Part shown: piece by piece, positions 8,925-12,661 of the stretch
Position numbering within the stretch: the first letter of the stretch is position 1
Layout: each line of letters begins with the position of its first letter
Assembly: GCA_017883965.1 (NCBI GenBank)
Contig: JAFNKG010000012.1
Coordinates: forward strand, 1 to 48,499
Direction: 5' to 3'
From: Candidatus Methanophagales archaeon
GTDB lineage: Archaea; Halobacteriota; Syntropharchaeia; Alkanophagales; Methanospirareceae
DNA: 48,499 bases
Notes under the pieces: model-generated
Seen by the model: only the letters and a program-made list of their open reading frames with translations
Databases searched by the model: none
What the model was told of the DNA's origin: nothing
Position numbers and translations under genes: made by a program

Positions 8925-9005
8925 AGTATATACGAAGTAAACTTCGCATATCATTCCAAAATGGGTGGATATACGACATTGATGTCGGATATACCGATGT
9001 TAGGC
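8925..9005 (+). repeat. degenerate attC/attI-like site A preceding the cassette array
   Basis: Ends in core GTTAGGC (8999-9005); imperfect outer stem AGTATATACGA...TCGGATATACC; internal hairpins; degenerate left core GCCAAAG at 8925. Confidence 0.4.
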
Positions 9006-9027
9006 GAAATGCAAAGAGGGTAATAAT

Positions 9028-10305
9028 ATGTTGCCAAGAAAAGCACTCGTGATTGGGATTATCCTGATAATAGCAGTGTTAGTGGCATCAGTTTGTTTGC
9101 TGCATGTGCCAAGTGAGAGATATACACCGATGTGCAAAGCAATACCACTGGCAACCACTTCCGATGACGAAAAATATCCAATATGGAGTCCGGATGGAAA
9201 CAAGATATTCTTCAAATCCGATGATTGTATCTGTGTTTGTAACCCAGATGGGAGTCAAAGGGAAAATCTGACAGAGTTCAAGGGATCTTTTGTCTTTAGC
9301 CCGGATATGAAAAGGGTGTTTTATAAGAAGACTATATATAATGAAGGCAAAGTGACATACCAAGCTTATGTGATGGACATAGATGGCAAAAATCAAAAGA
9401 AAATCGCCGAACTCGCTCTTGAGGAAAAGTATGTTAATGATGAGGGTTATATAGGGAACACCAATGCACTAATGTATACAATGTATTCGTGGAGTCCAGA
9501 TAGAACAAAAATCTTCTTCACCAAATTAGAAGAAACGGGCTACACATGGGTATGGAGACAAGAAGAAGGAAAATGGGCAAGATACAAAGCTGGAACTGAG
9601 CCTTCCGTACCTGTGGAGGAGTTCTTGGGAGCAGAGCAGAGGTTAATCGCTAAAGAACATGAGGAAACCGCCTGGATATGGGATTTGCAAGATAACGAGT
9701 TGAGATTCATTGGCCATTTGAGCAATGGCATCGTACACTTTCTCCATAGAGGAGAGGTCGTCTGGGGCCCAGATGGCAAGTATGTGGCTTTACCTGGTGT
9801 TGAACTTTCAGAGGATGGAGCGACTGAGCAAATTTTTGTGATAAATGTGGAAACCGGGGAGAGCAAGAGATTGACTTCATTCATTGGGTCCAATACCTGG
9901 CCTATATGGAGTCCTGATGGTAAGAAGATAATGTACGTGCGAGTGCCGCCGAAATACTGGTATATGCCCTTCATCTTTAACGACGATGAGGGCGGGGATA
10001 TCAGGGTGGTGGATATCGATGGAAGCAGCGAAAAACAACTAACAGATATTCCGATGAATTGGGAAGATGGATATTGGAGCCCTGATGGGTCTAAGATAGC
10101 TTATCTTTCTTGGGAAGAATGGGGCGAGAAAAACGAGGTCTGGGTGATGAATGCAGATGGAAGCGATAAGAAACTGCTTGTAAAAGGAGAGCGGGTGGAG
10201 AGTCTAGACTGGAGTCCTGATGGCTCAAAGATAGCCTTTGTCACGGGAAAAGTGAGCGAAGGTAAGCTTGATCGTGACATATACGTGGTAGATGTGCTAA
10301 AATGA
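9028..10305 (+). CDS. TolB/PD40-type beta-propeller protein with N-terminal TM segment (cassette 1 cargo)
   Basis: Repeated P[IY]WSPDG[NKS]KI blades and hydrophobic N-terminus. Confidence 0.85.
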   Translation: MLPRKALVIGIILIIAVLVASVCLLHVPSERYTPMCKAIPLATTSDDEKYPIWSPDGNKIFFKSDDCICVCNPDGSQRENLTEFKGSFVFSPDMKRVFYKKTIYNEGKVTYQAYVMDIDGKNQKKIAELALEEKYVNDEGYIGNTNALMYTMYSWSPDRTKIFFTKLEETGYTWVWRQEEGKWARYKAGTEPSVPVEEFLGAEQRLIAKEHEETAWIWDLQDNELRFIGHLSNGIVHFLHRGEVVWGPDGKYVALPGVELSEDGATEQIFVINVETGESKRLTSFIGSNTWPIWSPDGKKIMYVRVPPKYWYMPFIFNDDEGGDIRVVDIDGSSEKQLTDIPMNWEDGYWSPDGSKIAYLSWEEWGEKNEVWVMNADGSDKKLLVKGERVESLDWSPDGSKIAFVTGKVSEGKLDRDIYVVDVLK

Positions 10306-10353
10306 TAACTTGTCTATTATTAGCAGGATACATTGCAGATAAAAAGTGCACTT

Positions 10354-10556
10354 CGCCTAACAGAGTGTATCTGGCTACGGTGCTTCGCACCTTCGCCCAA
10401 ATTTGCCCTATCGGGCAAACTTCAGATACGCTCGGAACGTCAGACTGTGTGAAAACCCCAAATTTTGAGAATTTTTTACCTTATTTTTTGATTTAAAGGC
10501 GGTATAGGGTTTATTTTTCATGCAAACATGAGTTTTTACACAACCTGACGTTATGC
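10354..10556 (+). repeat. attC-like site B, interrupted by a ~111 bp inverted-repeat element
   Basis: GCCTAAC (10354) A GAGTGTATCTG...CAGATACGCTC GGAAC // GTTATGC (10550-10556). Confidence 0.75.
10439..10549. mobile_element. MITE-like element (or mini-cassette) with ~18 bp terminal inverted repeats
   Basis: GTCAGACTGTGTGAAAAC ... GTTTTTACACAACCTGAC; no ORF inside; lies between GGAAC and GTTATGC of attC-B. Confidence 0.6.
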
Positions 10557-10578
10557 GACATTCCTAGGAGGATTTAAA

Positions 10579-11127
10579 ATGCAAATAAGTGTTTACCAAG
10601 AAGCCATAATAGAAATGCAACCCACCCATCTTTTAGTGAGATGTGGTAGATGCCGTGGAACTGGCACAAGAGACCGTGATGGTCGCAACCCGAAATGCTC
10701 AGTTTGCAATGGAGCTGGGAAGGTGCTTGTTAGAGTTCAGCCCGGCTCATTTATTAAATGTGGATTTTGCAAAGGAGATGGAACCAGAGATCGTGATGGA
10801 AGAGATCCTGTTTGTCCTGTATGCCGAGGAGTTGGTGGTCTATTTAGGGAGTTGCCCGCGGTTATTTGCTCAAGGTGCAATGGAATAGGTAGTCGAGATA
10901 GAGATGGAAAGACACCTATTTGCAGAGAGTGTGGGGGTAGTGGAGTTAGACCACTTGGGGAACGTCGCCTAACAGGCGGGTATCTGGCTCCGCACCTTGT
11001 AGGTGCTCCGACCCAGATTTGCTCCGCTTCGCTCCGCAAACTTCAGATACCCGCCGGGCGTTATGTGCAATTGAAAAAGTGCCGCAAGTATGGTAAACTT
11101 AATAAATTATCATTTTTTACTTCTTGA
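10579..11127 (+). CDS. Cys-rich protein with three CxxCxGxG...RDRDG...CxxCxGxG modules (cassette 2 cargo); ORF reads through attC-C
   Basis: AGGAGG RBS at 10567-10572; CGRCRGTGTRDRDGRNPKCSVCNGAG repeated three times; C-terminal part encoded by the attC. Confidence 0.7.
   Translation: MQISVYQEAIIEMQPTHLLVRCGRCRGTGTRDRDGRNPKCSVCNGAGKVLVRVQPGSFIKCGFCKGDGTRDRDGRDPVCPVCRGVGGLFRELPAVICSRCNGIGSRDRDGKTPICRECGGSGVRPLGERRLTGGYLAPHLVGAPTQICSASLRKLQIPAGRYVQLKKCRKYGKLNKLSFFTS
10967..11066 (+). repeat. attC-like site C
   Basis: GCCTAAC-A-GGCGGGTATCTGG...CTTCAGATACCCGCC-GGGC-GTTATGT; 12 bp perfect outer stem. Confidence 0.8.
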
Positions 11128-11139
11128 AGAGGAAATAAT

Positions 11140-11925: not shown

Positions 11926-12048
11926 ACATAACAGCGGGTTTAAGCGGCGTCGCACCTTGCGGTGCTCCTTGGGTCTCGCCCTTCGGGCTCGACCAAATTG
12001 CCTCGGCTGTCGGCCTCGGCAACTTCTTAAACCCGCGTCCCGTTAGGC
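11926..12048 (+). repeat. attC-like site D
   Basis: ACATAAC-A-GCGGGTTTAAG...CTTCTTAAACCCGC-GTCCC-GTTAGGC; 11 bp perfect outer stem. Confidence 0.8.
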
Positions 12049-12060
12049 GAAATGTCTTTA

Positions 12061-12077
12061 ATATATGAGACATATAT
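12061..12077. promoter_or_regulatory. palindromic candidate operator/TATA region upstream of hicBA
   Basis: ATATATG-AGA-CATATAT inverted repeat about 20 nt before an AGGAGG RBS. Confidence 0.4.
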
Positions 12078-12098
12078 ATCCAATAGGAGGTATTAAAA

Positions 12099-12320
12099 AT
12101 GGAAAAATTACATCTGCCCATAATCATTGAGATGGACGAAGATGAGTATTACATAGTAAGTTGCCCGCTGTTCAGGGGTTGTCATTCTTACGGCGAAACT
12201 ATAGATGAGGCACTGGAAAATATAAGGGAAGTCATAGAGATGTGCCTCGAGGAGACAAAAGTCGAGGAGCTTAATAAGTTCGTAGGATTTAGGGAACTGG
12301 AAGTAGCTCAGAATGTCTAA
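12099..12320 (+). CDS. hicB: HicB-like antitoxin (cassette 4 cargo)
   Basis: IIIEMDEDEYYIVSCPLFRGCHSYGETIDEALENIREVIEMCLEE; overlaps hicA by 8 nt. Confidence 0.85.
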   Translation: MEKLHLPIIIEMDEDEYYIVSCPLFRGCHSYGETIDEALENIREVIEMCLEETKVEELNKFVGFRELEVAQNV

Positions 12321-12558
12321 ACTTCCCGTAATCAAAGGCAGAGAACTTGTAAAGTTTTTGGAATTCATGGGCTTTAGGGTTACCAGGACAAAAGGTTCTC
12401 ATGTAAGGTTGAGATCAGAAGATGGAAGGGTAACCACCGTTCCTGTGCATGGAAACAAGGACATACCCAAAGGGCTTTTGCGTAAAATAATCAGAGAAGA
12501 CTTGGAAATAAGTTTAGAAGAATTTTTAGAGTTATACTCAAGGTACAAAGGAAAATGA
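12313..12558 (+). CDS. hicA: HicA-like mRNA interferase toxin (cassette 4 cargo)
   Basis: LPVIKGRELVKFLEFMGFRVTRTKGSHVRLRS...VPVHGNKDIPKGLLRKIIRE. Confidence 0.88.
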   Translation: MSKLPVIKGRELVKFLEFMGFRVTRTKGSHVRLRSEDGRVTTVPVHGNKDIPKGLLRKIIREDLEISLEEFLELYSRYKGK

Positions 12559-12576
12559 GAAGATGATCGACACTTC

Positions 12577-12661
12577 GCCTAACAGAGCGTATCAGGCTCC
12601 GCTACGCTTCGCCCAAATTCCCCTTCGGGAAACTTCAGATACGCTCGTGACGACGTCAGGT
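12577..12661 (+). repeat. attC-like site E (right core degenerate: GTCAGGT)
   Basis: GCCTAAC-A-GAGCGTATC...CTTCAGATACGCTC-GTGACGAC-GTCAGGT; shares CTTCGCCCAAATT...AAACTTCAGATACGCTC with site B. Confidence 0.65.

Follow-up and report, generated by a model that had tools for sequence, protein, structure and literature searches.

How are gene cassettes moved in an archaeon whose cassette array has no integrase gene beside it? This question is raised by the window analysed here, a stretch of 48,499 nucleotides (contig JAFNKG010000012.1 of assembly GCA_017883965.1) from a Candidatus Methanophagales archaeon whose genome encodes mcrA. The window carries an attI-like site followed by four cassettes, each made up of one or two genes plus an attC site. 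As in canonical integrons, the cassettes stand in tandem on the same strand and are joined at G|TT. An integrase gene was not found beside the array, and the genes to its left are unrelated. With four attC sites the array falls under the definition of a cluster of attC sites lacking integron-integrases (CALIN; two or more attC in a span of 4 kb and no integrase nearby), yet an attI-like site is present. The locus probably represents an integron array in an mcr-bearing archaeon, with circular cassette insertion at G|TT and with an integrase devoid of the IntI-specific insert as the recombinase.

Cassette ends pair within the cassette

A first-pass annotation of the window had claimed that each cassette start is the reverse complement of the 3' end of the same cassette. 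This was borne out over 15, 15, 24 and 15 nt for cassettes 1 to 4, with one or two mismatches each. The starts, read directly and scored, lie at 8999, 10550, 11060 and 12042, and the 3' inverse cores end at 10361, 10973, 11932 and 12583. Aligned to the reverse complement of its own end, the start reads GTTAGGCGAA[A/G]TGCA in cassette 1 (1 mismatch in 15 nt), GTTA[T/G]GCGAC[A/G]TTCC in cassette 2 (2 in 15 nt), GTTATGTGC[A/T][A/G]TTGAAAAAGTGCC in cassette 3 (2 in 24 nt) and GTTAGGCGAA[A/G]TGTC in cassette 4 (1 in 15 nt). One mismatch, absent from the first-pass annotation, recurs in every pair at position 11, where the start has A and the reverse-complemented end has G. Beyond the 7-nt core, the score of cassettes 1, 2 and 4 was equalled by 0.46% of random region pairs and that of cassette 3 by none of 5000 random pairs from the region. 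The matching of starts and ends in the window cassettes is real. A score matrix revealed a clear preference for the own partner within the window in cassettes 2 and 3 only; for cassettes 1 and 4 it is unclear because their ends are near-identical.

Since the window alone shows the own-end preference clearly for just these two cassettes, the matter was settled with a wider set of 65 cassettes read from arrays in related genomes and in other phyla. Matches were counted at positions 8-20, with position 11 left out. Own ends gave 465 matches beyond the core; the linear neighbour scored 298 and shuffled partners scored 297 ± 11.6 (z = 14.5; 0 of 10,000 shuffles reached the own-end value), i.e. the linear neighbour was at chance. 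The further claim that pairing occurs within a cassette and not within the linear attC was thus upheld, and shuffled or neighbouring pairs of equal complementarity, the outcome against which it had been staked, were not seen. Own-end pairing falls with distance from the core, from about 0.9 at positions 8-9 to about 0.4 at position 20. At position 11, 62 of 65 starts have A and 49 of 65 ends have G, alike in other phyla; this combination corresponds to a G.T wobble on the bottom strand and an A.C mismatch on the top strand. In a second type of cassette end (L067, L075, L116, L112), the plain arm is replaced by a small hairpin, e.g. TTGCCCTTCGGGTC, ahead of the R'' box, and position 11 of the start is usually still A.

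DNA folding was applied to 48 cassettes, including the comparison of circular form and linear junction that had been suggested along with the first claims. In stability, the circular bottom strand exceeded the linear junction in 40 cassettes (mean -5.1 kcal/mol) and the top strand in 47. In cassette 3, the bottom strand reached -51.5 kcal/mol in the circular and -31.0 kcal/mol in the linear form. The arrays thereby show the attC type of canonical integrons, folding as a single strand with the bottom strand favoured and carrying R''/R' core boxes.

One attI-like sequence is joined to many cassettes

The 101 bases at 8898-8998, which the first-pass annotation did not mention, form an attI-like site at the left end of the array. 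Matches found with blastn, the best of them 77-87% identical, precede first cassettes and directly follow integrase genes. The site is present in 21 of 39 related genomes, with nine copies in the source genome. In 27 of 30 direct-orientation matches (three matches of the attI palindrome in reverse orientation were excluded) it is directly followed by |GTT, joined to 26 different cassette starts. Position and junctions suggest an attI role for this segment, and an attI next to the array, as in canonical integrons, is present as far as sequence alone can tell.

The same cassettes lie in different neighbourhoods

Two covariance models served to locate attC sites, one built from those of the window and another, R2, built on those of the source genome. 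With the model from the window, 24 attC were detected in the source genome (2.48 Mb), mostly dispersed, and covariance searches revealed attC in 31 of 39 related genomes. When the sequence upstream of solitary attC was searched for a matching start, a clear one was found for some of them only. The source genome has short arrays and solitary cassettes scattered over it, several of them right after an attI copy (L040 on G000:C26, L039, L052, L054; G000 is the source genome), and no single large array.

Several cassettes occur in different surroundings. One follows an attC in genomes G013 and G005 but the attI-like sequence in G020, and another is common to G004, G016 and G035; the shared part begins at |GTT. 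Cassette 4, which follows attC3 in the window, stands immediately behind attI in G004:C150 (97% identical) and G220:C137, and in G205:C42 and G257:C14 it is preceded by other attC sites. It recurs in other genera, and the break is always at |GTT. For cassette 3, the other sampled genomes of the family gave no match.

On comparative evidence, cassettes are thus almost certainly inserted as circles with the crossover at G|TT, as had been proposed at first, because (i) own-end pairing lies far above shuffles while there is none with the linear neighbour; (ii) the circular bottom strand mostly surpasses the linear one in stability; (iii) one attI-like sequence joins many cassette starts at |GTT; and (iv) cassettes, including cassette 4, stand in different neighbourhoods and break at |GTT.

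Related arrays are headed by an integrase without the IntI-specific insert

None of the sampled family genomes yielded a canonical integron-integrase above the TIGR02249 cut-off. In a sample of 249 genomes from the phylum, one, from another family, passed the integron-integrase cut-off, and the TIGR02249 search of the source genome returned partial matches only. The gene at the head of related arrays, in the same orientation, encodes a tyrosine recombinase about 340 residues long, a class that had escaped the first-pass annotation. It aligns to IntI1 and IntI4 without their insert of about 40 residues, and R, K, HxxR, H and Y are kept. As the IntI-specific insert (I2), a defining feature of canonical integron integrases, was looked for in the aligned integrases and not found, the system is to be called integron-like and not a canonical integron. 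Among NCBIfam models, the recombinase scores above the cut-offs of NF040815 and XerA_Arch and below that of the integron-integrase. The best solved match of an Altarchaeum homologue (AlphaFold model, pLDDT 89) was IntI4 (2a3v), followed by XerA, and the 50 top-ranked rows obtained when the integrase model was compared with PDB folds were all recombinases. The first 55 residues weakly resemble HARP, with Pfam scores below cut-off. Related arrays, including one in the single-contig genome G035, have the order integrase-attI-attC on one strand.

A genome scan for the insert-less integrase yielded 80 loci in archaea and bacteria, including Altarchaeum, Micrarchaeota, Undinarchaeales, Aminicenantes, Nitrospinae, Nitrospirae, Spirochaetes, Atribacteria, Dehalococcoidia, Bacteroidetes and others. 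Near 76 of the 80 loci, 49 attC matches were recorded, namely 41 downstream on the same strand, seven downstream on the opposite strand (all at one locus) and one upstream, with more upstream than downstream sequence covered by the search. At the Dehalococcoidia locus L124, a single attC lies behind the integrase on the same strand, and seven attC are clustered on the other strand.

The copies in the source genome comprise a 208-residue form with an internal deletion on C70 and C-terminal fragments on C136 and C53 (loci L002, L001 and L004). In several relatives the integrase gene is located at contig ends. Given these fragmentary copies and contig-end genes, assemblies may hide intact copies.

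Proposed mechanism and alternative explanations

In the mechanism proposed here, a cassette next to the attI-like site or within the array would be excised and integrated in the form of a circle that is cut at G|TT. Its ends would match because its first and last bases meet only in that circle. Closure of the circle would create a long hairpin in which the core is extended by as many as about 13 pairs; position 11 of the start is A, and the corresponding site of the end is G. Recombination would use the folded bottom strand, by analogy with classical integrons. The likely recombinase of attC, to judge from gene order and alignment, is the integron-like tyrosine recombinase without the IntI-specific insert, whose short N-terminal domain is possibly HARP-like. 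We lean, by a narrow measure, towards a broader proposal, according to which a widespread class of archaeal and bacterial integrons depends on integrases in which I2 was never present or has been lost. These would recognise attC via the longer outer stem with its fixed G.T at position 11 and perhaps via the N-terminal HARP-like domain, and many integrase-less clusters would be complete integrons of that class.

The following points weigh against the reading of the array as an integron served by an insert-less integrase: (i) the window array has no adjacent integrase, and the copies in the source genome are only fragments in a 93% complete assembly; (ii) the integrase of G035 is split over two frames; (iii) no attC was found at integrase locus L094; (iv) the breakpoints are natural ones, all from genome comparison; (v) enrichment of wobble-type pairs outside position 11 was not seen in the 65-cassette set (17 bottom-type versus 16 top-type); (vi) the R2 model may miss other attC types; (vii) a canonical IntI might act in trans or have acted in the past.

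The long arms might be a leftover of cassette birth beside one long hairpin whose outer arms decayed without being selected for recombination. This explanation, which is compatible with an integron, is conceivable but doubtful. Pairing does weaken away from the core, and the letters at outer positions vary between cassettes. Position 11, by contrast, is near-fixed in the 65 cassettes and likewise in other phyla, which speaks against decay because decay would not keep it, and the pairing of class 1 cassettes stops at position 12.

It is unlikely that an ordinary cassette cluster was moved by the canonical IntI of point (vii), with the insert-less recombinase as a bystander, e.g. a XerA-type resolvase. 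Bacterial IntI1 recombined archaeal attC in E. coli (PMC9668308), the NCBIfam cut-offs place the insert-less enzyme with XerA_Arch, and the source genome has no intact copy of its gene. On the other side, none of the sampled family genomes reaches the IntI cut-off, though most have attC, and IntI4 precedes XerA as best solved match both in sequence and in fold. Further, the insert-less gene of archaea immediately precedes attI and shares the strand of the array, and in many bacterial phyla the gene precedes attC, a placement unlike that of a dimer resolvase.

That the units are transposon-like elements with terminal inverted repeats bound by a transposase is highly improbable: inverted-repeat ends of 15-24 nt and solo units with similar ends exist, but beyond the core the repeats are specific to each unit and match only within it instead of forming one repeat per family, neither target duplications nor (by Pfam) a transposase in the cassettes were found, folded attC lie between units that share the G|TT abutment and one attI-like sequence upstream, and the |GTT breakpoints in several genomes are free of target duplication.

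Organisation of the window array

Table 1. Features of the cassette array, with positions in the window.
Feature	Position	Strand	Remarks
attI-like site	8898..8998	+	Two imperfect palindromes, the second GGATATACGACATTGATGTCGGATATACC, its end 3 nt before G|TT at 8999/9000
Cassette 1	9000..10550	+	PD40 beta-propeller protein (open reading frame (ORF) 9028-10305; Pfam PF07676) and attC1; ends GTTAGGCGAAATGCA/TGCACTTCGCCTAAC
attC1, split by insert	10355..10556	+	R1/R2 covariance match 10356-10443, 89.8/83.3 bits
Insert in attC1, like a miniature inverted-repeat transposable element (MITE), 107 bp	10441..10547	.	Ends CAGACTGTGTGAAAA/TTTTTACACAACCTG; target duplication ACGT
Cassette 2	10551..11060	+	DnaJ-type CXXCXGXG zinc-finger protein (ORF from 10579; Pfam PF00684) and attC2
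attC2	10967-11066	+	R1 covariance match 93.1 bits
Cassette 3	11061..12042	+	GNAT acetyltransferase with YoaP-like C-terminus (ORF 11140-11904; Pfam PF14268, PF13508) and attC3; 24-nt terminal pairing
attC3	11926-12048	+	
Cassette 4	12043..12652	+	HicB antitoxin (12099-12320) and HicA toxin (12313-12558); Pfam PF15919, PF07927; last attC
Last attC	12577-12652	+	
Right edge	12653..12690	+	Last attC runs into ACGTCAGGTG / ACGTCAGG; no GTTRRRY of a following cassette or intact site

The MITE-like insert has terminal inverted repeats and sits exactly at the crossover point of attC1; a second copy, 94% identical, is found at G000:C82:28882-28987. In view of this insert and of the last attC lacking GTTRRRY, the array may no longer be fully active. 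The zinc-finger ORF of cassette 2 (10579-11127) lacks its own stop codon and runs via attC2 into the leader of cassette 3. Directly after the array, at 12691-12961, a short gene is apparently split over two frames; its product is DUF433-antitoxin-like by resemblance only, and the gene is possibly a decayed former neighbour. An Rfam scan of the window gave no match, and a tRNA suspected near 7270 could not be confirmed.

Comparison with known systems

Most bacterial cassettes pair beyond the 7-nt boxes, up to 9-11 nt (Bouvier et al. 2009, PMC2727003), and the mark itself is therefore known. Particular to the arrays described here are the greater pairing length and the near-fixed A/G at position 11. 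In 13 class 1 cassettes, a small control with boundaries set by eye beside annotated genes and with several aadA alleles among the 13, excess pairing reaches no further than position 12, and most have A/A at position 11. Classical class 1 integrons share the RYYYAAC/GTTRRRY core boxes, the G|TT crossover, the folding strand and own-end pairing beyond the core, whereas here pairing extends to about position 20, position 11 is A/G, and integrase and attI are of other types.

The archaeal integrons of Ghaly et al. 2022 (PMC9668308) likewise comprise attC arrays mostly without a detected integrase, and attI lies directly downstream of the integrase gene. Their IntI carry the IntI-specific domain; the integrases described here are without it and thus are not IntI by that criterion. 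A near relative is the integron-like subgroup of tyrosine recombinases (Smyshlyaev et al. 2021, PMC8138268), and the NCBIfam model whose cut-off is passed, NF040815, is named site-specific tyrosine recombinase/integron integrase.

The insertion in integron integrases has been termed essential for integron function (PMC8138268). I2 is seen as the innovation that enables integrases to act on single-stranded attC hairpins, and detection tools separate IntI from other recombinases by this insert (PMC7790495, PMC9024848). A search of the open-licence literature found no report of insert-less recombinases heading attC arrays, and an earlier description elsewhere is possible. If true, the integrase-attI-attC layout without I2 in many phyla would represent either a second route to recombining folded sites or a surviving relative of the ancestral state; it would also account for many arrays now termed integrase-less.
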